From NCBI RefSeq assembly GCF_002902965.1, contig NZ_CP026106.1, positions 2,232,001-2,296,000 on the forward strand: a stretch of 64,000 bases of DNA, written 5' to 3'. The DNA is from Paraburkholderia hospita. GTDB taxonomy: Bacteria; Pseudomonadota; Gammaproteobacteria; Burkholderiales; Burkholderiaceae. The translations under genes and the position numbers were made by a program. Below the pieces are notes generated by a model that did not search any database, was not told the origin of the DNA, and worked only from the letters and a program-made list of their open reading frames with translations. Position 1 is the stretch's first letter, and each line of letters starts with the position of its first letter. Positions 15,225 through 54,279 of this stretch are shown piece by piece.

Positions 15225-16160
15225 GCGTTGCCCCTGTGCGGGGCGGCAGTTGCTTTGTCTGTGACGACTGCTTGGTTTGCTTCGGGTTTGCGCTGGCATC
15301 CGCGCTATGCCTTCGTGCTTCATGCGTCGCCCCTGTGCGGGGCGGCACCTACTTTTCTTTGCCGCCGCAAAGAAAAGTAGGCAAAAGAAAGCGGCTAACA
15401 CCGCCAGTTCTTCTTCCTGCCTGAGGGCCCCCAACCGGTCTTACGCTACACACGGCAACCACGTGACTCATGTTTGCTGCCAACGCTTCGAATGAACGCC
15501 TCACCCGCTTCGAATACCCGTACTCGGGCAAGCGGCAGCGAATGGTACGTGCCGCCCAGGTGGCAAACTGTGTGTAGGCTGTCGCGTCGTATAGCTTGGT
15601 GCTCTTACATCGCAGCACGCGTGCGCTATCGGTTCGAAGTGAGGCGTGTGTGGCTCTACGGCCTACACACAGTTTGCCACCTGGGCGGCGGTGGAATATC
15701 TGGCACGGCGTGCCGCATTGCAGGTGCGTGAAGCGGGTGAGGCGTCAATTAAGAGCGTTGGCAACAAGCATGAGTCACGTGGTTGCCGTGTGAAGCGAGG
15801 GACCGGTTGGGGGCCCTCAGGCAAGAAGAAATGTTGGCGGTGTGAGCCGCTTTCTTTTGCCTACTTTTCTTTGCGGCGGCAAAGAAAAGTAGGTGCCGCC
15901 CCGCACAGGGGCGACGCGTGAACGGCAAACACCGTAACGCGGATGCCAGCGCAAACCCGAAGCAAACCAACCAGCCGTCGCAGACAAAGCAGGCGCCGCC
16001 CCGCACAGGGGCAACGCTTGAAGCACGAAGGCAAAGCGCGGATGCCAGCGAAAACCCGAAGCAAACCAACCAGCCGTCGCAGACAAAGCATCTGCCGCCC
16101 CGCACAGGGAGCAACGCTTGCACCGCGCAAGCGCCACGCGGATGCCAGCGCAAAGGCAAA
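15225..16160. repeat. Large inverted-repeat element, copy A (subtype 1)
   Basis: Two arms of roughly 250-285 bases face each other around a core at 15580-15660. Each arm holds a perfect hairpin CCTACTTTTCTTTG / CAAAGAAAAGTAGG (15348-15381 and 15860-15893), a CGCCCC-TGTGC-GGGGCG hairpin, and next to the core a perfect 29-base inverted repeat (15551-15579 with 15661-15689, containing CAAACTGTGTGTAGGC). The box GCTGGCATCCGCG lies on the left and its complement three times on the right (15938, 16037, 16137). Open frames across it (for example [15 protein letters not shown]) come from the hairpins and are not treated as genes. It fills the gap between a DUF190 gene and an MFS gene. Confidence 0.85.
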
Positions 16161-16193
16161 ACCCCAGATCGCTTACCCCACACCGCTCGTTAC
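15895..16193. repeat. Three tandem units of about 100 bases on the right flank of element A
   Basis: GCCGCCCCGCACAGG recurs at 15895, 15995 and 16094, a period of 100 and 99 bases. Each unit contains one CGCGGATGCCAGC box, and the first two end with a CGTCGCAGACAAAGCA segment related to the outer boundary of copies B and D. Whether this arose by tandem duplication of the element's right end is inference. Confidence 0.8.
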
Positions 16194-16319
16194 GGGCAGA
16201 TCATGCATGCCGACGGCGACTAGCTCCCCGTACTGAAAATCCAGTTGTAACCACAACGTCATGGCATTTGCCGGACTGGCTATGCAATAATCAACATTCA
16301 CTTACATCGCTCGCCGCCC

Positions 16320-17729
16320 GTGCTGCTTGCCATCAAGGCTTTTATCGCTCCCGTCATCGTCGCCTGCGCGATGTTCATGGAGAGCGTCGATGCGAATGTC
16401 ATCGTCACTGCGCTGCCTGAAATGGCGCGCGCCTTCGGCCGGGACCCCGTCACGCTGAAAATCGCCGTCACCAGCTACGTGCTCGGGCTCGGCGTGTTCA
16501 TTCCCGTCTGCGGATGGCTGGCCGACCGTTTCGGCGCGCGCTCGGTGTTCCGCACGGCAATCGGCATCTTCGTGGTCGGCTCGCTGGCGTGCGCGGCGTC
16601 GACATCACTCGCGACATTCACGGTTGCGCGCTTCATACAGGGCGTGGGCGGCGCAATGATGGTGCCTGTCGGGCGGATCATCATCTTCCGCGTGGTGGAG
16701 CGTTCCGAGTACATACGCGCGATGAACTACCTGAGCGTGCCCGCGATGCTCGGACCCGCGGCGGGGCCGCTGCTCGGCGGCTTCATCACGACGTATCTGC
16801 ATTGGCGGCTGATTTTCTTCATCAACATTCCCGTCGGCATTCTGGGCATCTGGCTCACCAACAAGTACATCAAGAACACGCGCGAGCCGCATCCGGGTCC
16901 GCTCGACTGGTTGGGTTTCGTTTTGTCGGCGGGCGGCGCGTCGCTGTTTCTGCTTGGGCTTTCGCTCACCGACGGCGAACTGGTGACTGGCACGACGGCC
17001 GTCGTGATGACGGTGATCGGAGCTGTGATGCTCGGCATCTATGTGCTGTATGCGCGGCGTGTCGAGCGTCCGTTGCTCGATTTGCGGTTTTTTCGCGTGC
17101 CGACGTTTCAGGCTAGCGTGCTGGGTGGATCGCTGTTTCGTATCGGGCTTGGTGCTGTGCCGTTTTTGCTGCCGCTTGTGCTGCAGGAAGGGCTTGGGAT
17201 GAGCGCATTCGAATCGGGGTTGATTACGTGTGCCTCGGCGTTTGGTGGCATGTTCATGCGGACGCTTGCCGCCACTGTCTTGCGACGCTGGGGGTTTCGC
17301 ACAGTGCTGATGTATAACGCGGCGTATTCGGGTATCGCCATTGCCGCGTGCGGTGCGTTTTTCCCTGGGACGCCGACGTGGTTGATCTGGGTCATTGTGC
17401 TGCTTGGTGGGTTCTTTCCTGCTTTGCAGTTTACGAGTTTGAACTCGATGACTTATGCGGAGATTGAAAGCCGTGATGTGGGTCGGGCGACTAGCCTCGG
17501 CAGTGTTGTGCAGCAGATTTCTCTTGGACTTGGGGTTACCGTTGCGGGGATCGTGCTGTCGATTACTCGTGCTGTGCATGGGCATGCTGCTCTGCAATGG
17601 TCGGATTTCTGGCCCGCGTTTGTTGTGGTTGGGCTTTGTTCGTTTGCTTCGATTCTTGTTACCAGGAAGTTGTCGGCTAATGCTGGGGATGAGATTGTGA
17701 GGGGGAAGAGAGAGGTCACCACAAAGTAG
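16320..17729 (+). CDS. MFS drug/solute exporter, DHA2-type (EmrB/QacA-like)
   Basis: 469 residues from a GTG start. About 14 hydrophobic segments are visible, as in the DHA2 group. Helix 1 carries SVDANVIVTALPEMA, the usual DHA2 motif D1 region, and the loop between helices 2 and 3 has GWLADRFGARSVFR (motif A). It would export a small molecule using the proton gradient across the inner membrane. Codon use changes along the gene: from about 17060 on, codons increasingly end in T or G (GTTGTGGTTGGGCTTTGTTCG) as it nears inverted-repeat element B, whose boundary begins 12 bases after the stop codon. Substrate unknown. Confidence 0.9.
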   Translation: MLLAIKAFIAPVIVACAMFMESVDANVIVTALPEMARAFGRDPVTLKIAVTSYVLGLGVFIPVCGWLADRFGARSVFRTAIGIFVVGSLACAASTSLATFTVARFIQGVGGAMMVPVGRIIIFRVVERSEYIRAMNYLSVPAMLGPAAGPLLGGFITTYLHWRLIFFINIPVGILGIWLTNKYIKNTREPHPGPLDWLGFVLSAGGASLFLLGLSLTDGELVTGTTAVVMTVIGAVMLGIYVLYARRVERPLLDLRFFRVPTFQASVLGGSLFRIGLGAVPFLLPLVLQEGLGMSAFESGLITCASAFGGMFMRTLAATVLRRWGFRTVLMYNAAYSGIAIAACGAFFPGTPTWLIWVIVLLGGFFPALQFTSLNSMTYAEIESRDVGRATSLGSVVQQISLGLGVTVAGIVLSITRAVHGHAALQWSDFWPAFVVVGLCSFASILVTRKLSANAGDEIVRGKREVTTK

Positions 17730-17740
17730 GTTTTTTTTGT

Positions 17741-18809
17741 TGTCTGCGACGCTGGTCGGTGTTTTTGTGTTTGCGCTGGCATCCGCGTTTGCGTTTTCTC
17801 GGCGCGGGCGGGTTGGGTGTGCTGGTCTTTTCGCTGGCATCCGCGTTTTGCCTTCGTGCTTCATGCGTCGCCTTCCGGTTTTTGCCGTTGCGCCAGCATC
17901 CGCGTTTTGCCTTCGTGCTTCAGGCGTCGCCTTCAGGTTTTAGCCGTTGCGCCAGCATTCGCGTTTTGCATTCGTGCTTCAGGCGTTGCCTTCCGGCTTT
18001 AGCCCTTGCGCTGGCATCCGCGTCATGCCTTCGCACTTCAAGCGTCGCCCCTGTGCGGGGCGGCACCTACTTTTCTTTGCCGCCGCAAAGAAAAGTAGGC
18101 AAAAGAAAGCGGCTAACACCGCCAATCCTTCTTCTTGCATGCGGGCCCCCAACGGCCCCATGCTTCACGCGGCAACGTCCTGACTCATGTTCGTTGCCAA
18201 CGCTTTGAATAAACGCCTCACCTACTTCAAACGCCCGCACTATGGATTGATGTTGGCGAACGTTTCCGGCCGCATTGCGGCAAACTGTGTGTAGGTTGTG
18301 CCGTCGTACAGAGCAGCGCTTCTACATGGAGGCACATCGTGCGCTATCGGGTCCGAAGTGATACGCGTGTGGCGCGAAGGCCTACACACAGTTCGCCGCT
18401 AAAGAACGTGGGAAATTCGATATCGCGCGCGGCGACGCGGGAGCATGAAGCGGGTGAGGCGTACAGAGAGAGCGTTGGCAACGCGCGTGAACAAGAGCGT
18501 TACCATGTGAAGGACGGGGCCGTTGGGGGCCCGCAGGCAAGAAGAAGAGTTGGCGGTGTTAGCCGCTTTCTTTTGCCTACTTTTCTTTGCGGCGGCAAAG
18601 AAAAGTAGGTGCCGCCCCGCACAGGGGCGACGCTTGAAGTGCGAAGGCGTAACGCGGATGCCAGCGAAAACCCCAACAAACCAAACCGGCCGCGCCACAA
18701 AGGCAAATCGCGGATGCCAGCGCAAAGACGAGCACACCCAACCCGCCGACACCAAACACAACCGCGGATGCGAGAGAAAAAACCAAAACCCCGCCCAGCG
18801 TCGCAGACA
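17741..18809. repeat. Large inverted-repeat element, copy B (subtype 2)
   Basis: The best-bounded copy. It starts with TGTCTGCGACGCTGG (17741-17755), 12 bases after the MFS stop codon and a run of eight Ts, and ends with the exact complement (18795-18809), 21 bases before the next start codon. Hairpins CCTACTTTTCTTTG / CAAAGAAAAGTAGG lie at 18066-18099 and 18576-18609. The core-proximal inverted repeat is 18277-18295 with 18381-18399 (one mismatch), around an 85-base core. Five GCTGGCATCCGCG-like boxes stand on the left at 58-59-base spacing and two complete plus one degenerate on the right. Total length is 1069 bases. Confidence 0.88.
17775..18065. repeat. Tandem 58-59-base units on the left flank of element B
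   Basis: GCTGGCATCCGCG or a one- to two-base variant starts at 17775, 17833, 17892, 17951 and 18010, that is at intervals of 58, 59, 59 and 59. The sequence between boxes (CGTTTTGCCTTCGTGCTTCA and a following GCGTCGCCTTC) is also repeated. The other copies carry one or two of these units on the same side. Confidence 0.88.
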
Positions 18810-18830
18810 TAGAGAAAAGGAGACACTGCA

Positions 18831-19412
18831 ATGCCAGAAACAACGATCAGCCGATACCCAGTCCCGACCCCGGGCGAATGGCCCGACGACATCCGCGCCC
18901 GGATACTGGAAGTCCAAGCCAAAGCGGGCTTCGTCCCAAACGTCTTCCTGACACTGGCCCACCGCCCGGACGAATTCCGTGCCTTCTTCGCCTACCACGA
19001 TGCCCTGATGTTAAAAGAGGGCGGCCTCACCAAAGGCGAGCGCGAAATGATCGTAGTCGCAACGAGCGCCGTCAACAACTGCCTCTACTGCGTAGTAGCG
19101 CACGGCGCAATCCTGCGCATCTACGAAAAGCAACCGTTGCTAGCGGATCAACTAGCCGTGAATCACCGCAAAGCCGACATCACGCCACGCCAAAAAGCGA
19201 TGCTAGATTTCGCGCTAAAGGTATGCCGCGACTCGGCATCCACCAACGACGAAGATTTCAACACACTGCGCACGCACGGCTTCAGCGACGCCGACATCTG
19301 GGACATCGCCGCCATCACCGCATTCTTCGGCCTGTCGAACCGCATGGCAAACGTCATCTCAATGCGCCCCAACGACGAGTTCTACCTGATGGGCCGCATC
19401 CCACGCGAATAA
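18831..19412 (+). CDS. Peroxidase-related protein with carboxymuconolactone decarboxylase (AhpD-like) domain
   Basis: 193 residues starting MPETTISRYP, with AAAGGAGA upstream. The AhpD-type redox motif NNCLYCVVAH (C-x-x-C plus a histidine three residues on, about residues 82-91) is intact, so thiol peroxidase-like chemistry is possible; the family is named uncharacterised peroxidase-related enzymes. The 5' half uses unusually many A- and C-ending codons, including CTA and GTA that are rare elsewhere in the window, and this matches the composition bias on the right side of inverted-repeat elements. Its promoter must lie within or at the edge of element B. Confidence 0.87.
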   Translation: MPETTISRYPVPTPGEWPDDIRARILEVQAKAGFVPNVFLTLAHRPDEFRAFFAYHDALMLKEGGLTKGEREMIVVATSAVNNCLYCVVAHGAILRIYEKQPLLADQLAVNHRKADITPRQKAMLDFALKVCRDSASTNDEDFNTLRTHGFSDADIWDIAAITAFFGLSNRMANVISMRPNDEFYLMGRIPRE

Positions 19413-19428
19413 GAGTCAAACAGGAGCA

Positions 19429-22263
19429 CTACTGCTCCATCGCCCGCGAGCGCGGCGCCAGCGGCGACGACATCAGCGCGTCCAGCGACATCGGCCGCGC
19501 CAGGTGATACCCCTGCCCGTGCGCCGCGCCGATCGTGCGCAACAGTTCGAGCGTCGGCTGATCCTCGATGCCCTCGGCGACCACCGTCAGCTCCAGCGAT
19601 TCCGCCATCCGCACGATCGCGCGCACAATCGCGCGGCTGCGCGCGCTCTGCGTCAATTCGAGCACAAACGACTTGTCGATCTTCAAACCGCTGAATCGAT
19701 ACTGGTGCACATAGCTCAATGAAGAAAACCCCGTGCCGAAATCGTCGAGCACGACGCACATGCCGTTATCCGCGAGGCTTTGCATCGTCGTGCGCGCAAG
19801 GTCCGGCTCGGCAACGAGTGCGCCCTCCGTCAGTTCGAGCGAAATGCGCGAAGGATGCACGCCATAGCGCTTCAACAGTTCGAGCAGTTCGTCCGCGAAC
19901 TCAGGGCGCGTGATGCTATAGCTCGACAGATTCACCTGCACGGGCGGCCAGTCGACATGCTCCGGCTGCGCGAGAATCTCCGCCACGCGCGTGAGCATAT
20001 ACATGTCCAGACGCCCGATCAGCTTCAGCCCGTCCACCGCGGGCAGGAAACGCCCCGGCGCCCAGACCTCGCCGTTCGGCTGCTGCCAGCGGATCAACGC
20101 CTCCAGCGCGACGAGCTGGCCGCTGCCGATATCGACGATAGGCTGGAAATACGGCACCAGCTCGTCATCGCGCTTGAGCGCATTGCGCAGCGCGCCCTCC
20201 GTTTCGATCTGATCCGACAGCTCACGGCGCATCTGGTGGTTGAACACCGCGAAGCTGTCGCGGCCGCGATTCTTCACGCGGTACATCGCGGCATCGGCGT
20301 CGCGCAGCAGGTCGGCGGGCTCGCGGTGATGCGCGCTGTCCGCGCTCACCACACCGACGCTGCATGACGTGAACACCGTCTGCTCGCCGATGTTGAACGG
20401 CGTATCGAAAGCCGCAAGAATGCGCTCCGCAAGCGACAACACCGTTTGCAGGTTCGCGCCCGGCACGACGACGGCGAACTCGTCGCCGCCCAGACGCGCG
20501 AGCAGATCGTCGCGCCGCAAGCATTCGCGCAGACGCCCGGCCACGTCGACGAGCAATGCATCGCCGAACAGATGGCCGAGACTGTCGTTGACGACCTTGA
20601 AGCGGTCGAGGTCGATGAACAGCACCGACAACGGATCGCCGCGCTTGCTGTAGCCATGCCACGCCGCTTCGAGCCGCTCGTACAGATGCGAGCGGTTCGG
20701 CAGGCCCGTCAGCGCGTCGTGATAGTTCTCGTGCAACAGCCGCGCATTGGCCGCGTCGAGTTCCTGCGTGCGCGCCAGCACGCGCGCTTCGAGTTCGAGA
20801 TTCGCCGCATGCTGCGCTTCCGCGACGCGCCGTCGCGACAGCGCTGTATCGATGTGGCGCGACACGAAGGTCAGCAGTTCCTGATCGCGCCTGTCGTAAC
20901 GCACGCTCGACGAATAGCTCTGCACGACAAGCACGCCGCGCACCACGCTGCCGTCGAAGAGCGGCACGCCAAGCCACGAGCGCAAGCGGATGTTCTCGGT
21001 GTCCAGCATGATCTCGCCCGCCTCGACGAGACGCACGGCGTCGCTGGTGTCGAGCAGGCAAGGCACGCGTTGGCGGATCACATACTCGGTCAGCCCGCGC
21101 TCGCGACGGCGCGGTACAGGCACATCGTGCTGCGTTTCGTCGATGTAATACGGAAACGACACTTCCGCCGTCGCGGGTTCGAACAACGCGATATAGAAGT
21201 TCTTCGCATACAGCAGCCCGCCGACGATCGCATGCAGGCTGCGAAAGAACTTGCCGATATCGACGGATTGGCTCGACAGCTCGGCGATCTCAAACAACGC
21301 TGCCTGCAGGTGTTGCGCGCGCTCGCGCTCGGCGATTTCCGCGCGCAGCGTGTCGTTCAGCCGCGACAGCTCGGCCGTGCGGCGCGCCACTTCGGCTTCG
21401 AGGCCGACGCGGTGCAGAATGCGGTCGAGCGCCATCGCCACGTGCCGCGCGACAACGAGAAACAGCGCGCGGTCCTCGGCGCTATAGATGCGCGACGCAT
21501 CGTAGACCTGCATCGTCACCATGCCGAACACTTCGTCCGAGGCGTTTTTCAGCGGCGCGCCCATCCAGAACTTCGGACGGTGCCCGACGCAGTAAAAGCG
21601 CCCCGTCGCGGCCGCGTCGATGATGCCCTTCTCGTCGATCAGCAACGGCTGGCCCGTGGTCAGGACGTAACCCGTGAGCGACAGGCGTTCGGGGTCGACC
21701 ATGTCCATGTGATTCGTATCGACGGCTTCGGTGTCGATCAGGTCGATGTAATACGGATACGTGACGGCGCCCGTTTCGCCGTCGTAGAGCGCGAGATAGA
21801 AGTTCTCCGCGTCGATCAGCGTGCCGAGACGCTCGTGAATGGCCTGCAGGAACTCGCCGCGCTCGCTGATCGAACTCGCGAGATACGCGATGTCGTACAG
21901 CACGCGCTGCACGTTTTGCGCGCGCACCAGCGCATCGGCCTGCATCTGTTCGCCGATCGCGCGCGCGAGCGCGGTAAAGGCGGGATCCGATGCGAACGAC
22001 GCGGGCGCGAGCAGCCAGCCGAGCGCGAGGTCGCTGCGGCCCGTCGGCCACGCGAACCAGCCGCGCTCCACGCAGGCGTCGTGCAGCATCGCGGGCACGA
22101 TCGCGCGCGGCCAGTCGAAGCGCGTTGCGCCTTCGCGCACCAGTTCGAGATGCTGTCCCGCGCGATACCACGCCCACGGCACGCCGCGCGCCTCCACCGC
22201 GCGCGCCGCCTCGTCGATCGATTGCGACCTCGTCCCGCCTGCCGACAGATCGGCATTCCACAT
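19429..22263 (-). CDS. GAF-GAF-GGDEF-EAL cyclic-di-GMP signalling protein
   Basis: 944 residues, cytoplasmic by lack of membrane segments. Two GAF-type sensor regions occupy about residues 110-270 and 310-470, joined by a coiled-coil-like stretch (EVARRTAELSRLNDTLRAEI). A GGDEF domain follows with the intact signature RLGGDEF (about residue 590), then an EAL domain with EALIRW (about 720) and the conserved LDDFGTGFSSLSYV and KIDKSFV. Both catalytic signatures look complete, so the protein could both make and degrade c-di-GMP; which dominates cannot be told. It lies convergent to the CMD-domain gene and divergent from a cupin gene. Confidence 0.93.
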   Translation of the reverse strand: MWNADLSAGGTRSQSIDEAARAVEARGVPWAWYRAGQHLELVREGATRFDWPRAIVPAMLHDACVERGWFAWPTGRSDLALGWLLAPASFASDPAFTALARAIGEQMQADALVRAQNVQRVLYDIAYLASSISERGEFLQAIHERLGTLIDAENFYLALYDGETGAVTYPYYIDLIDTEAVDTNHMDMVDPERLSLTGYVLTTGQPLLIDEKGIIDAAATGRFYCVGHRPKFWMGAPLKNASDEVFGMVTMQVYDASRIYSAEDRALFLVVARHVAMALDRILHRVGLEAEVARRTAELSRLNDTLRAEIAERERAQHLQAALFEIAELSSQSVDIGKFFRSLHAIVGGLLYAKNFYIALFEPATAEVSFPYYIDETQHDVPVPRRRERGLTEYVIRQRVPCLLDTSDAVRLVEAGEIMLDTENIRLRSWLGVPLFDGSVVRGVLVVQSYSSSVRYDRRDQELLTFVSRHIDTALSRRRVAEAQHAANLELEARVLARTQELDAANARLLHENYHDALTGLPNRSHLYERLEAAWHGYSKRGDPLSVLFIDLDRFKVVNDSLGHLFGDALLVDVAGRLRECLRRDDLLARLGGDEFAVVVPGANLQTVLSLAERILAAFDTPFNIGEQTVFTSCSVGVVSADSAHHREPADLLRDADAAMYRVKNRGRDSFAVFNHQMRRELSDQIETEGALRNALKRDDELVPYFQPIVDIGSGQLVALEALIRWQQPNGEVWAPGRFLPAVDGLKLIGRLDMYMLTRVAEILAQPEHVDWPPVQVNLSSYSITRPEFADELLELLKRYGVHPSRISLELTEGALVAEPDLARTTMQSLADNGMCVVLDDFGTGFSSLSYVHQYRFSGLKIDKSFVLELTQSARSRAIVRAIVRMAESLELTVVAEGIEDQPTLELLRTIGAAHGQGYHLARPMSLDALMSSPLAPRSRAMEQ

Positions 22264-22525
22264 AAATCAGCCCTCGTGCCGTCCCGTGATTGTGTTGCGC
22301 CTTGAACCGTTATATCGACGTAAGCAACAGCAAACTTAATGTATCTGGCCCGCAAAAAAAATGCCTCAAGCACACGAAAACGTTTGCTTGAAGATTTTTC
22401 GGATGCGGTTTTGCCCTGATTGCCGCGGGATGGGATTTGCTGTTTAGCTGACGTCCGCGCCGCCCACGCGAGGCGATCTTTCGATTCGCATGCACGGCGC
22501 ATCAGCATCAGTTCGAGGAGCAGAC

Positions 22526-23068
22526 ATGCAAGCACATACGAGGGGCGCGGTGCACGCGGACGTTTTCCGGCTCGGCCCGCGCGACTGGGTGCCGAACAAT
22601 GCGCATCTCCCCGTCATCCTGTATCGGGACGTGCTGGACGGCGACGGCTCAGGCGACGGAGAGCGGCTCGCCGACGCGTTCGAAGCGATGTTCCAGCGCA
22701 ACGGCTGGCCGCCGAAATGGCGCAACGGCATCTTCGACTATCACCACTTCCATTCGTCGGCGCATGAAGTGCTCGGCATCGCCGGGGGCGCGGCGGATGT
22801 GATACTGGGCGGTCCGGGCGGCCGCGTCGTGCATCTGGAAGCGGGCGACGTGATCCTGTTGCCGGCGGGCACCGGGCATTGCCTCGAATCGTCGAGCGGG
22901 CCGCTCAATGTAATCGGCGCGTATCCGCCGGGCCAGCAATGGGACATCCGCCGCGACGCATTGACGGGTAAGGAACGCGCCGCGATGGAAGCCCTGCCGT
23001 TTCCGCACAGCGACCCTGTGCGCGGCGCACAGGGTCCGTTGATCGAGCACTGGCTGAACGAGGCGTGA
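22526..23068 (+). CDS. Cupin-domain protein (YjlB-like)
   Basis: 180 residues from the ATG at 22526, preceded by CGAGGAG at a good distance. A single cupin barrel is visible: HHFHSSAHEVLGIAGG (first metal-binding motif, about residues 72-87) and LEAGDVILLPAGTGH (second motif, about 103-117). The histidines needed for a metal are present. Its catalytic role, if any, is unknown. The gene is divergent from the GGDEF-EAL gene and convergent with an ABC permease gene. Confidence 0.82.
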   Translation: MQAHTRGAVHADVFRLGPRDWVPNNAHLPVILYRDVLDGDGSGDGERLADAFEAMFQRNGWPPKWRNGIFDYHHFHSSAHEVLGIAGGAADVILGGPGGRVVHLEAGDVILLPAGTGHCLESSSGPLNVIGAYPPGQQWDIRRDALTGKERAAMEALPFPHSDPVRGAQGPLIEHWLNEA

Positions 23069-23107
23069 GCGTTGTCAGCGCCGGCGTTGCATCGTCATGG
23101 TGCAGCG

Positions 23108-25057: not shown

Positions 25058-25078
25058 GCGTATCGAACGTGGCAGCGG

Positions 25079-37783: not shown

Positions 37784-37890
37784 TACAGCCTGATGTTTGA
37801 GCAAGCTTTTTTGCCAGGTTTTTAGTGGGGATAAACCCCAAGGTCGTGGTTGTCGCTGGCGCTGGGTGATTTTTGTTCGTGGTCCGTGGT

Positions 37891-38648
37891 TTTTTTGCGT
37901 CTGCGGCGCGGGCTTTTTTGGCTGGCATCCGCGTGGCGCCTACGCGGCGCAGGCGTTGCCCCTGTGCGGGGCGGCACCTACTTTTCTTTGCTGCCGCAAA
38001 GAAAAGTAGGCAAAAGAAAGCGGCTAACACCGCTAATTCTTGTTATTACCCACGGGCCCCCAACGTCCCGACGCTTCACACGGCAACGAAATAGCCAACG
38101 CACGTTGCCAACGTACTTATCAAGCGTCTCCCCCGTTTCACGCACCGACGTCATGACCCACGATATGGAATATCCACGGCCCCGTAGCGGCAAACTGTGT
38201 GTAGGTCGTGCCTTCGTACAAGGCAGCGCTCCTACATGGAGGTATGCGTGCGCTTTCGGTCCGAAGTAAGGCATATGCGGCGCGATGGCCTACACACCGT
38301 TTGCCGCTATAGAACGTGGGAAATTTGGTCACGCGCGTGGCGACGCGGGAGCGTGAAGCGGGTGATGCGTATGGAGAGAGCGTTGGCAACTCACGCGAAC
38401 AGAAATGCTGCCGCGTGAAGTGTGGGGACGTTGGGGGCCCGTGGATAAGAACATGGGCTGGCGGTGTTAGCCGCTTTCTTTTGCCTACTTTTCTTTGCGG
38501 CGGCAAAGAAAAGTAGGTGCCGCCCCGCACAGGGGCGACGCTTGAAGCACGAAGGCATAGCGCGGATGCCAGCACCGAGGCAAAAGAACCAACCGCTTGC
38601 GCAGCAAACACCGTAACGCGGATGCCAGCGCAAAGGCAAAAAAACCAA
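37891..38648. repeat. Large inverted-repeat element, copy C (subtype 2)
   Basis: Hairpins CCTACTTTTCTTTG / CAAAGAAAAGTAGG lie at 37977-38010 (loop CTGCCG, one change from the others) and 38484-38517. The core-proximal repeat is about 38186-38205 with 38289-38307, around an 83-base core that matches copy B best (CTACATGGAGG shared). One GCTGGCATCCGCG box stands on the left (37921) and two complements on the right (38561, 38617). The outer boundary is degenerate (TTTTTTGCGTCTGCGGCGCGGG). Flanking genes are on the minus strand, yet the core has the same orientation as in the other copies. Confidence 0.85.
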
Positions 38649-38693
38649 ACCTCAGGCGCCAACAAAAATCCCCCGCGCCGCACGGCAAAAAGC

Positions 38694-44201: not shown

Positions 44202-44236
44202 AGAACGGCAAGCCGCACACGAAGCAGGACGCAAGC

Positions 44237-46899: not shown

Positions 46900-47016
46900 G
46901 CATCGCCTCTGATCCGGTCGGTGCGAATGAGCACCGTAGTTGGCTCGAGCGGCGCACTGCGCCGCTCCCGTACCCGCGCCCGTCTACTGCCCTCATCGTC
47001 ACGCGGACTGTGAACG

Positions 47017-47030
47017 TATTTAGTATATCA
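47017..47030. promoter_or_regulatory. Predicted GntR operator upstream of regulator copy 2
   Basis: The minus strand reads TGATATACTAAATA, sharing TGATATAC with the other sites and diverging after that. It lies 118 bases before the start codon. Confidence 0.45.
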
Positions 47031-47125
47031 GCGCGTGAGGTATTGTCGATGAAAGCCGCATCGGTGCTGGCTGCGCAGCTTCGCCACGCGCGTCGCGCAG
47101 TGTAGCGTGTGCCCGGCAAAAGAGC

Positions 47126-47425
47126 CTAAGGATTAGGAACTGTCGATGCGGCGCTCGTCGCGGCTGCCGTCAAAGCCTCGGGCGCCGAGGACGCTTCGCG
47201 CGGCGCTTCATGCGCAATCGTGCCGCATTGCAGCTGGCCGGCGTCGCTGGATTCGAGCTCGGCGGCGTTCAGGTTTGCGCAGGCGGCTTCGACGATCGTG
47301 CCGATGTCGTGCCGGTTGCGCTCACGCGCGGCGTGCTTCATTTCGCTCTGGAGCCAGCCGCTGAAACTGACGACGGCGAACACGGCAACGGTGAGCAGTA
47401 CGGACTCGGTCTTGGACAAACGCAT
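47126..47425 (-). CDS. Small membrane-anchored hypothetical protein
   Basis: 99 residues from MRLSKTESVLLTVAVFAVVSF at 47425; a GTG at 47461 would add MSGCPSCKALSK, and neither start has a clear ribosome site. One hydrophobic helix (about residues 8-25) is followed by a mostly polar, alanine-rich region with two cysteines, ending in a low-complexity tail (EALTAAATSAASTVPNP). This suggests an inner-membrane protein with its bulk in the periplasm. No domain recognised. Confidence 0.5.
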   Translation of the reverse strand: MRLSKTESVLLTVAVFAVVSFSGWLQSEMKHAARERNRHDIGTIVEAACANLNAAELESSDAGQLQCGTIAHEAPREASSAPEALTAAATSAASTVPNP

Positions 47426-47461
47426 CTTGGATAGGGCTTTGCAGGAGGGACAGCCAGACAC

Positions 47462-48070
47462 GTTATCGGCAGCGGCGCGGAAAGCTTGAATGGTTTGAGC
47501 GGCTCGAGTGAATCAGCAGGCGCGATAGAAGCCGTCGAACCCGGCGATGGATGCATCGACGGCGAGCAATCGAGCGATTCAGCATTGGAGAAATCGCCCG
47601 CATTTGAATAGGAAAAGCATCCAGAAGTCGCAAGCAATGAGCGCGGCGGCACAAGCTCGCGGGTGAGAAAGAACCGCCAGGCCCAGTCCGCCGGCTCAAC
47701 CGCATTTGTCAAACCGTCGATATAAATCCAGCATACAGCATGGTTAACGTCGAATTCGCGACCGAGTCGAAAGCGGATATAGAAATTCGTGTAATGCCGC
47801 TGCGCCTGCTCGTGCAGCATGCCCGACATAGCGGCAACGTTCGGCAAATCGCCATTGCAGTTCGAAAATTGCCCGGCTATATCGGATCACGCATTGCCCT
47901 TCATGCAAATTGTGTTGAGCCAATCGTCTTGGTGTTAGCTGAATTGATCCACTAGCCTGTCGCCTGCTTCAAGCTTCAATACCGCGAACATTACTCCCGG
48001 CTTTCGCATTCAATTCGAAAAGCCGCAATATGCAATACGGATTTTGCCAATCCAATCAATGGAGACCGCC
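47462..48070. other. Gene-poor stretch before the metallophosphatase gene
   Basis: About 600 bases of somewhat lower GC. Frames are open on both strands (minus 47463-47847 and plus 47740-47955), but neither has a ribosome site or recognisable sequence, and they overlap each other. The last 60 bases hold the leader of the gene at 48071, with GGAGACC as ribosome site. Confidence 0.45.
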
Positions 48071-49417
48071 ATGGCCGTCGAACCCGAGAGCTTCCGCGAT
48101 CAATTCGTCTCGCTGTTCCAGTCAGCCGTCGATCAGGTCGTGCGCAGTACGACGCCTTCCACGACGCTCGCCTCGCGGCCTGGAGCGAACAACGCGCTCG
48201 TCAATGCGGCAGCGACGATTGCGTCGCTGAAGTCGCAAGGCGAATCGGCCTTGCCCGACGTCGCACCGGACGAAGTCGCGCAGGACGCCTGGACCTGCGC
48301 GAAGATGGGCTTCGCGCTGATGGAAGCCCGCGCCCGCGGCGACGCGGCCGGCGCCGACAGCATCGAGAACGACCTGCGGTTCAACGTCTGCGATCCGGCG
48401 TGGATCAAGGTCATCGAGAGCTACATGCAGTACTTCGGCCCGGACGGCAAGCGCGCGTCGATTCCTTACCGGCGCGCGGCCGCGATCGGCCCAGTGACGG
48501 TTCCACTGAAAGCAGGCGCAACAGTCGCGCTGATCGCCGACTGGGGCACCGGGACGGACGTCGCTGTGGATCTGCTGAAGCAGGCCGCGCTGCAAAACCC
48601 CGACGTCGTGATTCATCTCGGCGACATCTACTATTCGGGCACCCCGCAGGAATGCGATGCGAACTTCAGGAACATCGTCGACAGCGTGCTTTCGCGCAGC
48701 ACGAAGGACGTGCCCGTCTACACGCTTTCGGGCAACCACGACATGTACTCGGGCGGCGCCGGCTATTACGGGCTGATCGACACGCTCAACGATCACGCGC
48801 GCCTTCAGCCTGCCAGCTTCTTCTGCCTGCGCAACGACGACTGGCAGTTCATCGCGCTGGACACAGGGCTGCACGACTACAACCCGTTCGACGGAACGGA
48901 AGTCCTCACGTTTATCGAGCAGGACGAAGAGGACTGGATCGTCGAGCGCATCGCCGAATTCAGCGGCAAGACGATCCTGCTGTCGCATCACCAGCTGTTT
49001 TCCGCGCTGTCGCAGATTGGACCGTTGCAGACGGGCGGCAAGCTCGTCGCGCACAACCCGAAGCTGCTCGCGAGCTTCCAGCGTTTCGCACAAGCCGCGA
49101 AGCAACCGGTTAGCGCATGGTTCTGGGGCCACGAGCACAACCTGAGCATCTATCAGCCGTACCTCGGATTGAACCGCGGACGCTGCATCGGCCATGGCGC
49201 GGTGCCCGTGATCGTCGACGGACCGGAGAACGCGCCGGACACACGTATCGTCAATCCGCCCGCGCTGCAGAACGTGCTGCTGAAAGAGGCGGACAAGATC
49301 TATATGCACGGCTTCACGATCATCCGGCTCGGGCAAGGCGCGCAGAGTGGGCAGGCGTCGGCGGAGTACTACGAAAGCAGCGACGGCACGACGCCCATGT
49401 TCACGGAAACGCTCTAG
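48071..49417 (+). CDS. Calcineurin-like metallophosphatase with an unassigned N-terminal region
   Basis: 448 residues from MAVEPESFRD at 48071. Residues from about 155 to 400 form a metallophosphatase: LIADWGTG (first metal motif, tryptophan where many have histidine), GDIYYSG, GNHDMYSG, SHHQLF and WGHEH. The first 140 residues are helical and unlike known domains, with DEVAQDAWTCAKMGFALMEARARGD. No signal peptide, so it acts in the cytoplasm. Substrate unknown. It ends 16 bases before the convergent DUF1428 gene. Confidence 0.87.
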   Translation: MAVEPESFRDQFVSLFQSAVDQVVRSTTPSTTLASRPGANNALVNAAATIASLKSQGESALPDVAPDEVAQDAWTCAKMGFALMEARARGDAAGADSIENDLRFNVCDPAWIKVIESYMQYFGPDGKRASIPYRRAAAIGPVTVPLKAGATVALIADWGTGTDVAVDLLKQAALQNPDVVIHLGDIYYSGTPQECDANFRNIVDSVLSRSTKDVPVYTLSGNHDMYSGGAGYYGLIDTLNDHARLQPASFFCLRNDDWQFIALDTGLHDYNPFDGTEVLTFIEQDEEDWIVERIAEFSGKTILLSHHQLFSALSQIGPLQTGGKLVAHNPKLLASFQRFAQAAKQPVSAWFWGHEHNLSIYQPYLGLNRGRCIGHGAVPVIVDGPENAPDTRIVNPPALQNVLLKEADKIYMHGFTIIRLGQGAQSGQASAEYYESSDGTTPMFTETL

Positions 49418-49433
49418 CGCCCGCTGAACGCCG

Positions 49434-49787
49434 TCACACGTCGACGATCACTTCGAAGCCGCCGTAGATCAGCCGCTTGCCGTCGAACGGCATCGTCATC
49501 ACATCCGGTTGAAGACGCGGATCGGCCATCACCTTGCTCATGCCTTCGTCGCGCTTCGCGCGCGAAGGCCAGACGACCCACGAGAATACGACTACTTCGT
49601 CCGGCTCGCGCTTGACGGCCAGCGGGAACGACGTGAGCTTGCCTTCAGGCACGTCGTCACCCCAGCATTCGACGACGTTCAGCGCGCCGTACTCCTTGAA
49701 CACGCCCGCCGCCGTCTCGGCGTGCTTGCGGTAAACCTCGCGATTCTCGGCCTTCACTGCCACCACGAATCCATCCACGTAGTTCAT
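49434..49787 (-). CDS. DUF1428 family protein
   Basis: 117 residues starting MNYVDGFVVAVKAENREVYR behind AGGAGG. The pattern VECWGDDVPEGKLTSFPLAVK and VVFSWVVWPSRAKRD and the final FGGF-like RLIYGGFEVIVDV are typical of DUF1428, a dimeric alpha/beta-barrel family with no established function. It is monocistronic by position. Confidence 0.9.
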   Translation of the reverse strand: MNYVDGFVVAVKAENREVYRKHAETAAGVFKEYGALNVVECWGDDVPEGKLTSFPLAVKREPDEVVVFSWVVWPSRAKRDEGMSKVMADPRLQPDVMTMPFDGKRLIYGGFEVIVDV

Positions 49788-49978
49788 TGCCGCCTCCTGT
49801 GCAAAGTCGTCAGATGCCGGGCATAAAAAGCACCGCTGCCCGGTTCTACACAGACGACGATCGACGCGACAGCAAATCGACAGCTTCGCGAAGATTTTCC
49901 TGTCCGAATGCGCGGCGGGCATGCACCGTATGCCGCGCCAATGTCATAATCCGCGCAGCATCTACACACGTTTTCAAC

Positions 49979-50365
49979 ATGGCGAGCCGGTTCCATCGGA
50001 AGATTGGCTGCATTCTCGGATTGCTTGCGATCCTGATGGCGGCGCTCGCACCTACCGTCTCGCAGGCCATTGCGGCGAGCCGCGGCGCGTACGATCCCGC
50101 CGCCGCGCTCTGCTCCGCCCAAACGGCCAGTCCCGCCGACACCCAAGAGGACGACACCGGCAATACGCACACGCTCGCCTCGCACTGGCACGCGTGCGGC
50201 TATTGCAGCCTGCTCGCGCATATTCCCGTGCTGCCCGCGTCGCCGTCGACGTTCGCGCTGACGGTCGCCGCGATCACGCAGCGCGTGGCGGTTCGGTTCG
50301 AAAGCGTCGCGCTCGTCACACCGTTCGAAAGCGCGCAGCCGCGCGCGCCGCCCGTGCATCTCTGA
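49979..50365 (+). CDS. DUF2946 protein
   Basis: 128 residues starting MASRFHRKIGCILGLLAILM, with an N-terminal membrane helix or signal segment. The central LASHWHACGYCSLLAHIP (about residues 67-84) holds clustered histidines and a C-x-x-C, able to bind a metal, and is characteristic of the family. DUF2946 genes often sit with copper or TonB-receptor genes, and here the next genes encode an outer-membrane protein and a CopC homologue in the same direction. The role is unknown. Confidence 0.82.
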   Translation: MASRFHRKIGCILGLLAILMAALAPTVSQAIAASRGAYDPAAALCSAQTASPADTQEDDTGNTHTLASHWHACGYCSLLAHIPVLPASPSTFALTVAAITQRVAVRFESVALVTPFESAQPRAPPVHL

Positions 50366-50478
50366 GTCGAACCCGCGTACCCGCAACGCCGTCACGGCGT
50401 TGCTGTTTTCGCGCATGCCGCGTTGCCGCTTTCCGGCGCGTACGCGGCCGGCGCGCGCTCTCACTCAGGATCACCTAC

Positions 50479-51360
50479 ATGAATACCCGACACGCCAGGC
50501 GCGGCACGCTGCCGTTCGCCGGCTGCATCCTTGCAGCCCTGCTCGTTCCGTCCATTTCTCATGCGCACGCCATTGCAGGCGACCGCGTCTTCCCCGCCAC
50601 GATGGCCGTCGACGATCCGGGCGTCAGCGACGAACTCAATCTGGAATATGGCCACCAGCGCGTGCGCGGCGACGATGGCGACCAGAGCGTCAACAGCTTC
50701 AGCTTCGAATACGACAAGCTGATTACGCCGCGCCTCGCGGTGTCGATCGGAGGCGCCTATGTCGGGCAGAACAATCCGACCGCGCATGGCTTCGACAACT
50801 TCAGCGTCGGGCTCAAGTACCTGCTGTATGTGAACGAGGCGCACGAGTTCATGACGTCGGTCGGTGTGGACGCGGACCTGGGCGGCACGGGCAGCCACGC
50901 GATCGGCGAGAGCTTCTCGACCATCTCGCCGACGATCTTCGCCGGCAAGGGCTTCGGCGACCTGCCCGATTCGCTCGCGTATCTGCGCCCCATCGCGATC
51001 ACAGGCGAAGCAGGACCCGCGTTGACGACGGGCGCGGGCCAGCCGAACGCGTTCAACTACGGCGTGACCGTGCAATACAGCCTGCCCTATTTGCAGCAGC
51101 ACGTGCGCGACGTCGGCTTGCCGCAGCCGCTTGCGAACCTGATACCGATCGTTGAAATTCCGCTGTCGCGCAGCCAGGGGCAAACCACGGGCACGATCAA
51201 CCCCGGCGTCATCTGGATCAACCGTTATGGGCAATTCGGCATCGAGGCGCAAATCCCCGTGAATCACGCAAGCGGTTCGCATGTCGGCGTGCTGGTGCAG
51301 GCGCATCTGTTCTTCGACGACATCGCGCCCACGACCATCGGCAAACCGCTTTTCCCGTAA
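50479..51360 (+). CDS. Outer-membrane beta-barrel protein of a copper-type cluster
   Basis: 293 residues with a signal peptide (MNTRHARRGTLPFAGCILAA, cleavage near SHAHA). The mature protein alternates hydrophobic and polar residues in barrel fashion (LNLEYGHQRVRGDDGDQSVNSFSFEYDKL, FDNFSVGLKYLLY) but lacks a terminal phenylalanine, ending GKPLFP. It looks like a small transporter or outer-membrane protein of unknown specificity. The CopC gene starts 13 bases after its stop, so the two are co-translated. Confidence 0.75.
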   Translation: MNTRHARRGTLPFAGCILAALLVPSISHAHAIAGDRVFPATMAVDDPGVSDELNLEYGHQRVRGDDGDQSVNSFSFEYDKLITPRLAVSIGGAYVGQNNPTAHGFDNFSVGLKYLLYVNEAHEFMTSVGVDADLGGTGSHAIGESFSTISPTIFAGKGFGDLPDSLAYLRPIAITGEAGPALTTGAGQPNAFNYGVTVQYSLPYLQQHVRDVGLPQPLANLIPIVEIPLSRSQGQTTGTINPGVIWINRYGQFGIEAQIPVNHASGSHVGVLVQAHLFFDDIAPTTIGKPLFP

Positions 51361-51373
51361 CGAGGACACCATC

Positions 51374-51733
51374 ATGAACACGACACGACTCGTGGCGGCG
51401 CTCGCGCTGTCACTCATGCTGACGCCGCTCGCGGCGCTGGCCCATGTGTTTCCGCAGAAGCAGGAGCCCGGCGCGGGCGCGACCGTCGAAGCGCCTGCCA
51501 GGGTGACCATCACCTTCGATGGCCCGCTCGAGCCCGCCTTCAGTTCCTTGACCGTCACGGATGCGGCGGGCAAGCAGGTGAGCACCGCGAAATCGGCGGT
51601 CGATGCGCAGCAGCCGAGCGTCGCGTCCGTCGCGCTGCCCGCGCTGGCCGCAGGGAAATACACGGTGCATTGGGTCGCGGTGGCATCGGACGGTCATCGC
51701 ACGCACGGCGACTACTCGTTCAATGTGAAGTGA
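51374..51733 (+). CDS. CopC-domain copper-resistance protein
   Basis: 119 residues with a signal peptide ending LAALA, then HVFPQKQEPGAG. The mature N-terminal histidine, the beta-sandwich pattern (VTITFDGPLEPAFSSLTV) and the C-terminal histidine-rich WVAVASDGHRTHGDYSFNV match the Cu(II)-binding CopC/YobA fold. It would carry copper in the periplasm. It is shorter than fused CopCD proteins and no CopD membrane partner is nearby, unless the DUF2946 or outer-membrane gene plays that part. Confidence 0.88.
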   Translation: MNTTRLVAALALSLMLTPLAALAHVFPQKQEPGAGATVEAPARVTITFDGPLEPAFSSLTVTDAAGKQVSTAKSAVDAQQPSVASVALPALAAGKYTVHWVAVASDGHRTHGDYSFNVK

Positions 51734-51971
51734 CGCGTGCAGTAACAGCGGGTGCCGAACCCCACGTCCGCTCTGCTGCATCGCGATTAAAAATGTCGTA
51801 AAAAATGGGCCGAATGCGCGACGCGCGGCGTCATGGAACTGGACATGACGCCGCGTTGCACGAGGCCGTGCTACTGTCGCAAACAGCCGTTGCAAACGAC
51901 CATTGAAACAACGATTGCAAGCGGCTGGCCTGCACGTCGCTTTGACCGTTCAACCCCGCTATGGAGTGTGC

Positions 51972-53441
51972 GTGAACAATCCGCTGATTTTTGGCTTTGC
52001 GCTCGTCGCAGTCGATGTCGTGATCTGGCGTTGCACCACACCCAAAAACGAAGTGGCGCGGCTGCTGGTGCGCCTGTGCATTTACGCGGCGTTCAGCGCG
52101 CTGCTATTCGGCTCGGGCCTGAGTCCGTTCTCGCAAGCGCCCTACGAGGACTCGAAGCCGTTGCACGTGCTTGGCCAGGTGCTGGAAATCATCTGGTGGC
52201 TGATGGGTGCGCGCTTGCTGAGCCTGGCGCTCGACACGCTGCTGTTGCCGCAGACCTGGCGCCGTCAACGGCTCTTCTCCGACGTGTTCGGCGCGGTGGT
52301 GTTTCTCGCGGCGGTCGTCGCGGCGCTCGGCTTCGTGCTCGAGCTGCCGGTGCGCGGGCTGGTGGCGACATCGGGCGCGCTTGCCATCGTGCTTGGCCTC
52401 GCGATCCAGAGCACGCTCAGCGACGTGTTCGCCGGCATCGTGATCAACACGACCGAGCCGTATCACATCGGCAACTGGGTGATCATCGACGGCGTCGAGG
52501 GCAAGGTGCTGGAGATGAACTGGCGCGCGACGCATCTGCTGACCTCGCAAGGCAATATCGTGATCGTGCCGAATGCTGTCGCGGCGAAGGCGAAGATCAC
52601 GAACAACAGCCGCCCGTCGGCGCTGCACGGCGTGACCCTGATGCTGGAAATCACGCCCGAAGCACGCCCGAGCGTGGTGCTGGCTGCGCTCGAACGTGCG
52701 CTGGCGGGCGTGCGGGCGGTGATCGCCGATCCGGCGCCGTATGCGATCGTGAAGCGGACCAGCATCATGTCCGTCACGTACGAGGCGACTGCGTATGTCG
52801 ACGACATGGGCAAGAAACTCGCCGTCACGAATGAGCTTTTTGACTTGTGTTACCGGCAGCTGCAGGCGGCGGGTGTCGAGTTGAAGCCGCTCGGGGTTGG
52901 GTATTCGCCTTCTTCGCCTTCGCTGGCGCAGCAGACCGATCCGCGCGTTGCGCTGCTGAGGCGCGTGGAGATATTCGCCGCGTTGACGGCGGAGGAGTTG
53001 CAGCGTCTCGCGCCTATGCTTTCACGTCGCTCGTATGAGCGCGGCGATACGGTGGTCACGCCGGACAAGGTGCTCGGCCATTTGACCATTGTCGATTCGG
53101 GTGTGCTTTCTGTTGTGGCTGAAGATGCGTCTGGGCCTGTCGAAGTGACTCGTCTTGGTCCTGGTGATGCGTTGGGCGAATTCGGTCTGCTGGCAGGCAT
53201 GCCGGCGCGTGTGACGATCTCGGCGCTTACGTCGGCGACTGTTTATCAGTTGAAGAAGGAGGACTTGACGCCGCTGCTCAAGGATAAGCCCGATGTCGCC
53301 AGGGAGATGTGTCAGATGCTGTCGCGGAGGCAGGATACGTTGGGTAAGCTCGGGACGCCGACGCCTGTTGCTCAGTCGGAGCAGTCGATTTTTCAATGGC
53401 TGCTGGATGGGATGAAGAAGTTGCATGATCTGACGTTTTGA
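51972..53441 (+). CDS. MscS-family channel with C-terminal cyclic-nucleotide-binding domain
   Basis: 489 residues from the GTG at 51972, with TGGAG five bases upstream; the open frame begins at 51903 without such a site. Four hydrophobic helices (to about residue 155) lead to the MscS pore and beta domain (GLAIQSTLSDVFAGIVINTTEPYHIGNWVIIDGVEGKVLE). Residues from about 340 on form a cNMP-binding domain (FAALTAEELQRLAPMLSRRSYERGDTVV, then LGPGDALGEFGLLAG). It belongs to the bacterial cyclic-nucleotide-gated group of MscS-like channels. The last 600 bases are G/T-rich in third positions, next to inverted-repeat element D. Confidence 0.9.
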   Translation: MNNPLIFGFALVAVDVVIWRCTTPKNEVARLLVRLCIYAAFSALLFGSGLSPFSQAPYEDSKPLHVLGQVLEIIWWLMGARLLSLALDTLLLPQTWRRQRLFSDVFGAVVFLAAVVAALGFVLELPVRGLVATSGALAIVLGLAIQSTLSDVFAGIVINTTEPYHIGNWVIIDGVEGKVLEMNWRATHLLTSQGNIVIVPNAVAAKAKITNNSRPSALHGVTLMLEITPEARPSVVLAALERALAGVRAVIADPAPYAIVKRTSIMSVTYEATAYVDDMGKKLAVTNELFDLCYRQLQAAGVELKPLGVGYSPSSPSLAQQTDPRVALLRRVEIFAALTAEELQRLAPMLSRRSYERGDTVVTPDKVLGHLTIVDSGVLSVVAEDASGPVEVTRLGPGDALGEFGLLAGMPARVTISALTSATVYQLKKEDLTPLLKDKPDVAREMCQMLSRRQDTLGKLGTPTPVAQSEQSIFQWLLDGMKKLHDLTF

Positions 53442-53443
53442 GG

Positions 53444-54279
53444 TTTTTTTGTCTGCGACGCTGGATGGTGGTTTGGGCTTTGTGCTGGCATCCGTGTTTG
53501 CGTTTTCTCGGCGCGGGCGGGTTTGGTGTGCCGGTCTTTTCGCTGGCATCCGCGTTTTGTTAGCGTGCTTCAAGCGTCGCCCCTGTGCGGGGCGGCACCT
53601 ACTTTTCTTTGCCGCCGCAAAGAAAAGTAGGCAAAAGAAAGCGGCTCACACCGCCAGCTCGTGCTCTTGTCCACGGGCCCCCAACGGCCCCACGCTTCAC
53701 ACGGCAACATCTTTGTTTGCGTGCGTTGCCAACGCTTCGAATGAGCGCCTCACCCGCTTCGAATACCCGTGCACGGGCAGGCGGCAGCGAATGGTTTGCG
53801 CCGCCCAGGTGGCAAACTGTGTGTAGGTTGTCGCGTCGTATAACCTTGCGCTCTTACAGGGTGGAACGCGTGCGCTATCGGTCCGGAGTGAGGCATGTGA
53901 GGCACTATGGCCTACACACAGTTTGCCACCTGGGCGGCGGTGGACTATCTGGCACGGCAGACTGTAATGCAGGTGCGTGAAGTAGGTGAGACGCACAGCA
54001 AGAGCGCTGGCAACGAACATCAGTCACGTGATTGCCGTGTGAAGCGTAAGACCCTTTGGGGGCCCTCAGGCAGGGAGAAATGTTGGCGGTGTGAGCCGCT
54101 TTCTTTTGCCTACTTTTCTTTGCGGCGGCAAAGAAAAGTAGGTGCCGCCCCGCACAGGGGCGACGCTTGAAGCACGAAGGCATAGCGCGGATGCCAGCGA
54201 AAAGGCTAGAACAACCAAACCGGATGCCAGCACAAAGCACAAAACCCAAACCACCAACCAGCGTCGCAGACAAAAAAAA
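53444..54279. repeat. Large inverted-repeat element, copy D (subtype 1)
   Basis: Bounded by TTTTTTTGTCTGCGACGCTGG (15-base boundary at 53450-53464) and its complement with an A run (54258-54272), so 823 bases between the boundaries. It begins right after the MscS stop codon and ends just before the leader of the ABC ATPase gene. Hairpins lie at 53598-53631 and 54109-54142; the core-proximal perfect 28-base repeat is 53800-53827 with 53911-53938, around an 83-base core. Two GCTGGCATCCG(C/T)G boxes stand on the left (53484, 53542), one complete and one partial on the right. It shares the GCCGCCCAGGTGG arm end with copy A. Confidence 0.88.

Follow-up and report, generated by a model that had tools for sequence, protein, structure and literature searches.

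A family of large non-coding inverted-repeat elements at gene 3′ ends in Paraburkholderia hospita

What are the four large inverted repeats that lie in a 64,000-nucleotide stretch of the genome of Paraburkholderia hospita (assembly GCF_002902965.1, contig NZ_CP026106.1, positions 2,232,001 to 2,296,000), and what might they do? This whole stretch is referred to below as the window. We conclude that the elements are probably non-autonomous, non-coding repeats of the type represented by repetitive extragenic palindromic (REP) sequences, bacterial interspersed mosaic elements (BIMEs) and REP doublets forming hairpins (REPINs). They are several times larger than usual, their copies appear to form an exchanging pool, and their palindrome may be recognised both as DNA and as RNA; no enzyme that would move them was found in the searches made.

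Architecture of the four elements

The four elements share one layered plan. From the outside in, each comprises outer modules built around GCTGGCATCCGCG, a 67-base terminal unit, a core of facing arms, a short inner repeat and an unpaired centre. The terminal unit consists of a GC hairpin (GCCCC-TGTGC-GGGGC), a 34-base AT palindrome and an A-rich tail, CAAAAGAAA. Two inverted copies of this conserved two-hairpin unit flank the core of every element, as follows (window coordinates; elements and inner repeats carry no strand).

15222..16164: element 1 with its outer modules
15324..15390, + strand: element 1, left terminal unit (GC hairpin 15329-15343, palindrome 15348-15381, A-rich tail)
15851..15917, − strand: element 1, right terminal unit (palindrome 15860-15893, GC hairpin 15898-15912)
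15551..15689: element 1, inner inverted repeat (arms 15551-15582 and 15658-15689, unpaired centre)
17732..18818: element 2, filling the gap between two + strand genes (stop 17729, next start 18831)
18042..18108, + strand: element 2, left terminal unit
18567..18633, − strand: element 2, right terminal unit
37887..38682: element 3
37953..38019, + strand: element 3, left terminal unit
38475..38541, − strand: element 3, right terminal unit
53444..54278: element 4 (core 53598-54142)
53574..53640, + strand: element 4, left terminal unit (terminator-like GC hairpin 53576-53596, then ACCTACTTTT)
54100..54166, − strand: element 4, right terminal unit (mirror terminator-like hairpin 54164-54144 on the − strand)
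53799..53939: element 4, inner inverted repeat (29 bases, 100% complementary, 53799-53827 and 53911-53939)

This layout bears out a first-pass annotation of the window, which had described four copies with a perfect hairpin in each arm, a second small hairpin, facing arms and a core-proximal repeat. A search of both window strands for CCTACTTTTCTTTG, allowing one mismatch, returns 16 matches, all of them exact. These make up eight perfect palindromes, two in each element, and 100 shuffled windows contain no match. The GC hairpin GCCCCTGTGCGGGGC occurs ten times (0.01 expected) and the CGCGGATGCCAGC modules 15 times, once with a mismatch (0.81 expected). The facing arms align without gaps over at most 165-233 bases, depending on the element, at 81-87% complementarity. 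The inner repeat, which contains CAAACTGTGTGTAGG, is a near-perfect inverted repeat of 29-32 bases in elements 1 and 4, and a shorter variant, judged by eye, in elements 2 and 3. The large RNA hairpin that the annotation anticipated is also predicted: element 4, taken as RNA, has a predicted fold of −422.3 kcal/mol, as against −243.2 (standard deviation 5.1) in 20 shuffles, a difference of 35 standard deviations.

Variation among copies was examined in a set of 60 distinct elements from the same genome, drawn from the loci sampled, in which both palindromes have at most three mismatches and lie 300-700 bases apart; four of these copies are of ambiguous orientation. A coding function was rejected, as the variation across the 60 copies has no three-base periodicity and Pfam gives no match at E 0.001 for three open reading frames overlapping elements. 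The elements are non-coding. The spacing of their palindromes is nearly constant, at 507-514 bases with a mode of 512. In other species, spacings measured from slightly different anchors are about 370-660 bases, and both the sequence and the length of the core are species-specific.

Distribution, position and proposed recognition of the palindrome

The complete P. hospita genome (G000, 11.53 Mb in six contigs) holds 296 exact palindromes, and three other genomes hold 337 (G001), 114 (G020) and 95 (G018). Across a survey of 40 genomes the number ranges from 0 to 337, with at least one copy in 14. The exact palindrome is present in 13 of 299 genomes drawn from the whole family, all in one genus of 25. 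A looser dyad, TTTCTTTG-loop-CAAAGAAA, is found in 53 of 150 family genomes and in eight of 25 genera, with one control match in one genome. Plasmid records supply 20 further matches (Paraburkholderia 10, Burkholderia 7, Caballeronia 3), and a scan of named genomes gives at least 80 loci, all in Paraburkholderia or Burkholderia among the matches listed. The earlier suggestion of a single widespread family thus holds across the Burkholderiaceae in genome, family and plasmid-record scans. Four IMG/VR contigs carry a similar dyad, and a 91-base query has no match at E 0.01 in 50,697 phage records.

Where the elements lie relative to genes was assessed for elements with at least three half-palindromes and two callable neighbours, after removal of duplicates by distance signature. 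Convergent genes flank 33 of the 57 elements classified and co-directional genes the other 24; none has divergent neighbours. For comparison, the 278 gaps of 150 bases or more within 800 kb, element-bearing gaps included, comprise 38 convergent, 159 co-directional and 81 divergent gaps (chi-square p 3e-14). In G001, six of 14 classified elements are convergent, eight co-directional and none divergent, many of them orthologous to the G000 set. In the 28 copies inspected, a stop codon often immediately precedes the outer part, which is rich in G and T. The elements therefore sit at gene 3′ ends, and never between divergent genes in this sample.

Such positions suggest how the palindrome might act as RNA. 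In 3′ untranslated regions it could end or protect transcripts that enter from either side, and two-way transcript ending or 3′-end protection would be its most likely effect. Around element 4 (1.1 kb) there are seven terminator-like hairpins, compared with an expectation of 2.1 (standard deviation 1.5), and two mirrored pairs are among them.

As DNA, the palindrome would be recognised by transposases. An IS481-like insertion sequence (IS) with exact 18-base ends is present in ten copies in G000 and 12 in G001. All 22 lie in the palindrome loop at CGGCGG/CCGCCG (at least one junction inspected for each), and both ends together with a 6-base duplication are seen in eight. An IS110-like element (319-amino-acid frame from ATG; loci L173-L180) is inserted at one place in the core-side half of the palindrome, TTGCCTACTT^TTCTTTG, in eight of eight cases, these being the copies of one element among 40 PF02371 matches. 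An IS66-like element occurs twice in the palindrome loop, with the transposase checked in one case. Family names were assigned from Pfam and NCBIfam. In one IS481-like copy (G000:C1:3429810-3431088; L325, L340) both flanks read as outer flanks, as if the insertion sequence had replaced the core.

Members of the IS110 family are described as inserting at fixed palindromic sites under the guidance of a bridge RNA (PMC11208160, PMC1525189). The IS110-like site found here is a candidate natural bridge-RNA target; a 6-mer scan of the element's ends gave short matches only and no clear guide. The insertion sequences that target REPs (IS621, IS1397, ISPpu9 and others) likewise insert at a fixed place of a genomic palindrome, whereas the target here is the 34-base palindrome of the elements. 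Two unrelated insertion sequences, one of them from the RNA-guided IS110 family, thereby gain exact and abundant natural targets.

Which parts of the terminal unit are preserved between genera can be judged from an alignment of 46 distinct units that match one regular expression in chosen loci. In the two outermost pairs of this unit's AT stem both bases are exchanged (CG in 27 units and GC in 19; UA in 24 and CG in 22), and 11 of the 15 pairs are invariant. This is evidence that symmetry is kept at the foot of the AT stem and that the inner stem is kept letter for letter. The covariation score is 0.120, compared with 0.079 in shuffled alignments and at most 0.067 in slid ones. Both this score and the percentage paired exceed those of all 500 shuffles, which ignore relatedness.

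The AT hairpin with its TTTCTTTTG flank is present in six of 219 genomes of the phylum, P. hospita included, with no control match. Outside the order it has 36 sites in one genome (G584) and two in another (G606), both of the same class and another order. At four such loci a GC-rich hairpin seems, by eye, to come next on the same side. A near-identical AT hairpin motif is repeated in G584, a gammaproteobacterium of another order (loci L468 and L470).

These data bear on the most serious competing explanation, namely that the elements are selfish or neutral repeats, maintained by conversion and by insertion into harmless places, which leave transcripts unaffected. Positions behind genes are those in which any insert tends to survive selection, and cores can be lost, both as this explanation expects. 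Conversely, the paired changes in the AT palindrome across genera and the matching motif, with its 36 copies in a genome of another order, suggest sequence-specific recognition. We consider neutrality unlikely, with an appreciable chance of being right.

Probable exchange between cores, and loss of the core

Evidence for an exchanging pool comes from comparison of G000 with G001, whose aligned surroundings are ∼94% identical. All five G000 elements in the first 400 kb have a G001 counterpart at the matching place. Some of these counterparts are interrupted by insertion sequences, and one has a single recognisable palindrome. Several loci at 0.59-0.71 Mb coincide with breaks in the G000/G001 alignment, and G020 is not collinear with G000 in the stretch compared for synteny. 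Seven orthologous pairs could be matched within 800 kb with both palindromes present. Their cores are 0.78-0.90 identical (mean 0.84), as compared with means of 0.81-0.83 for non-orthologous cores across the two genomes and 0.84 for paralogues within G000.

Linkage between common variants declines steeply within about 80 bases: r2 is 0.225 at 1-3 bases, 0.040 at 41-80 bases and 0.02-0.03 beyond, with an expectation of 0.017. At 36 of 75 polymorphic sites in the left arm, the mirror site carries the complementary alleles, compared with 7-13 sites when the arms are slid by 1-5 bases. These mirror alleles are unlinked within a copy; arm pairing within copies amounts to 11,539, against a mean of 11,581 when whole arms are permuted (200 permutations), and no covariation between the arms is detected within the copies of this one genome. 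In addition, the core of element 4 (53598-54142) is nearly identical to that at G000:C2:844150-844694, and the outer flanks of the two differ. The low identity of orthologous cores, the rapid decay of linkage, the unlinked mirror alleles and the twin of element 4 together point to ectopic gene conversion, in which copies of a single pool would swap short tracts in both orientations, with an occasional replacement of a whole core.

The first-pass annotation had expected each copy, if transcribed, to fold into a giant hairpin. Selection on this hairpin as a unit is not supported, since arms assort independently across the 60 copies and only the short palindrome exhibits paired changes between species. 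Selection probably does not act on a duplex of more than 500 bases, and the local palindrome appears to be what is kept.

At some sites precisely the core is gone and a single GC hairpin remains. A pattern in which the GC hairpin is joined to the outer flank on both sides, with at most one mismatch, is found in five of 17 genomes (G000 13, G001 1, G338 4, G391 32 and G345 2 sites). At three loci inspected, a core present in G000 is missing from G391 or G001 and the outer arms are retained. The ends of these losses fit slippage between the 5-base direct repeats, GCCCC or GGGGC, at the foot of the hairpin, which might account for core loss, and an enzyme might also be responsible. For the gene that separates elements 1 and 2, 15 loci were compared (of 29 other loci, from 117 genomes); they include one core-less site in G391 and several element-free sites, none of which has a clean target duplication.

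At the site of element 1 (window 15209-16236 compared with L190 and L189), other species carry what we tentatively read as an SDR-type dehydrogenase gene. A remnant of the 3′ end of this gene seems to persist behind element 1.

A large family that has conserved positions, recombining interiors and apparently no association with a transposase of the kind discussed below would be a natural system in which to measure ectopic gene conversion in bacteria. A more far-reaching and still doubtful proposal is that the AT palindrome, its TTTCTTTTG flank and the GC hairpin constitute a deeply conserved, sequence-specific signal that extends beyond the Burkholderiaceae and is read by a widely distributed factor. 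In Paraburkholderia, this signal would have given rise to a population of giant hairpins, independent of that transposase, with arms free to recombine throughout the genome in either relative orientation. If so, a non-coding repeat would here be evolving as a sexual population does, within a single set of chromosomes.

Relation to known repeats and to other explanations

REPs are described as palindromes of high copy number that are extragenic and form species-specific families, and the well-studied families are tied to REP-associated tyrosine transposases (RAYTs) (PMC2817692, PMC3116915). They are also described as known targets of several IS families, IS110 among them (PMC1525189). The elements studied here resemble REPs and BIMEs in their high copy number, palindromic and extragenic character, frequent location between convergent genes and targeting by IS families that include IS110. 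As in those repeats, the palindromes are abundant and mostly at gene 3′ ends (296 palindromes; none of 57 elements between divergent genes). They differ in having a 67-base two-hairpin unit and a length of about 600 bases plus outer modules. Like REPINs, as outlined in PMC3116915, they form hairpins and have two palindromes in inverted orientation separated by a spacer, the length of which is important; unlike REPINs, their palindromes are about 370-660 bases apart, the arms are uncompensated within copies and no RAYT association was found.

The GT(A/G)G head, which in REPs sits directly before the GC-rich palindrome, is matched in part, and in Paraburkholderia-type units only. Read from the inside out, these units have GTAGG followed by a TGCC-free four-base spacing before the GC hairpin, and in the alignment Burkholderia-type units have GTAACC or GTGACC at this position. 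Over the 40 genomes, copy number is by eye uncorrelated with matches to the Y1_Tnp model, the search for RAYTs being confined to this Pfam model. The 60 copies from one genome likewise display no REPIN-type compensation between the sides of the hairpin. Because neither the RAYT association nor the compensation was found and the head is only partly present, we do not file the element as a REPIN. The family works like a REP or BIME and is built like a giant REPIN, yet is kept apart from REPINs.

The same evidence makes it rather improbable that the elements are giant REPINs in the full sense, with the units as REPs and the doublet copied in trans by a RAYT, an IS200/IS605-type transposase. The inverted doublet of palindromes, the hairpin, the many extragenic copies and the species specificity are all as described for REPs and REPINs (PMC2817692, PMC3116915). 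Paraburkholderia-type units have a GTAGG, four bases short of the GC hairpin, that is reminiscent of the GT(A/G)G head, and each of the 24 searched genomes of the genus contains a weak Y1_Tnp match (237 amino acids long in G000). However, G001, G018 and G020, with 337, 95 and 114 palindromes, have this weak common match only, plus one below the cut-off in G001. The 1,601 bases that surround the weakly matching gene of G000 include no terminal unit, and the two stronger Y1_Tnp matches in G000 contain stop codons. Burkholderia-type units have GTAA or GTGA rather than GTAG, and arm compensation of the REPIN type is absent.

Little probability attaches to the idea of an element resembling a miniature inverted-repeat transposable element, that is, a non-autonomous transposon with long inverted ends moved by some DDE transposase. 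Conserved ends around a variable interior would fit such an element, as would the variable presence of the whole of element 1 at its site between species. So would an inverted pair of units at a locus in Burkholderia-like genomes, between genes whose proteins we read as a regulator and an aminotransferase. Among the matches listed, the units of this pair are 567-662 bases apart in seven genomes and 2.1-3.9 kb apart in five, and the longer spacing encloses type VI secretion genes at the two loci tested. Nonetheless, these comparisons revealed neither a target duplication nor a clean empty site. Differences between G000 and G001, where comparable, consist of core loss and IS insertion, and the change at the element 1 site accompanies gene loss.

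It is very improbable that the hairpin of more than 500 bases is made and selected as a large structural RNA, for instance for RNase III or as a regulatory duplex, despite the extreme folding energy of element 4 and the near-constant core length, in view of arms that do not covary across 60 copies, core-less hairpin sites (32 by pattern in G391) and cores that differ in sequence and length from species to species. An excess of G-U over A-C cells in the arms (1,237 vs 927), which could be cited in its favour, was judged uninformative, since it stems largely from a few columns and transcription may run over both strands.

The preferred reading of an exchanging pool of REP-type repeats with a doubly recognised palindrome has to be weighed against several observations. 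Every step that it proposes at the RNA level is deduced from sequence, and the gene contexts derive from a crude gene caller of our own, based on codon usage, which called 78% of 800 kb as coding. At elements 2 and 4 a co-directional gap is filled nearly up to the start of the next gene, and no sigma-70-like promoter was found around element 4; both speak against a strong terminator there. On the inward side, the T-rich run begins some bases past the GC stem, unlike that of a classic intrinsic terminator. In the 46-unit alignment, the number of pairs changed on both sides (three) is equalled in 150 of 500 shuffles and the number of further pair types (six) in all 500; the third pair of the AT stem is unpaired in 17 units, and the GC hairpin has no two-sided change. 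A weak signal of orthology persists in the cores, the ortholog lying above the mean of other cores in five of the seven pairs and being the best match in two. Copy pairs differ by a mean of 85.6 substitutions and 1.87 insertion or deletion events, and this scarcity of the latter in the core is not obviously explained by conversion alone. The founding insertion step was not seen in the genome comparisons made.

Has any part of the element been described before? The first-pass annotation knew of no described role for the family. In agreement with this, literature searches on repeats in Burkholderia or Paraburkholderia and on the sequence of the palindrome turned up neither a role nor a description of the element among the matches listed. 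The main text of RepRanger 2025 does not name Burkholderia, Paraburkholderia or Ralstonia (PMC12306157). One part does have a named relative: the outer half of the terminal unit is related to the Rfam family RF02421 (Bp1_684), itself without known function. The RF02421 model takes in the GC hairpin, a portion of the AT stem and the outer flank. In the window it matches below its gathering score of 44 bits, on the two sides of element 4:

53517..53608, − strand: RF02421 Bp1_684 match, 39.3 bits
54132..54220, + strand: RF02421 Bp1_684 match, 35.7 bits

The gathering score is reached at three of six further loci of the same genus (L018, L045 and L265, with L007, L269 and L281 below it), and at both of the Burkholderia-like loci L309 and L320. 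Of two presumed Caballeronia loci, L313 falls below 44 bits and L317 has no match. The score is 118.8 bits in Burkholderia cepacia between lpdA and aceF, where a single unit lies, and 44.6-60.7 bits at the four Burkholderia-like loci searched besides it. In the account of Khoo et al. 2012, Bp1_684 is among the small RNAs (sRNAs) validated by reverse transcription PCR (RT-PCR) and has pdhB and lpdA as its neighbours; matches in other phyla are reported there, and action in trans is raised as a possibility (PMC3521395). The neighbours pdhB and lpdA of that Burkholderia sRNA (Bp1_Cand684_SIPHT) are shared with the B. cepacia unit. The sRNA was described as a candidate detected by RT-PCR, whereas here the same sequence type is one end of a dispersed inverted-repeat element, so that the published candidate is recast as the end of a repeat.

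Two minor observations concern Burkholderia-like genomes. In one genome (G121), two units lie far apart. In the two long-spacing pairs tested, the units of L303 enclose a Tae4 amidase effector and PAAR domains and those of L304 a Tae4 domain, both sets being type VI secretion genes. Within the window, one feature matches an Rfam model at its gathering score:

62580-62653: tRNA gene

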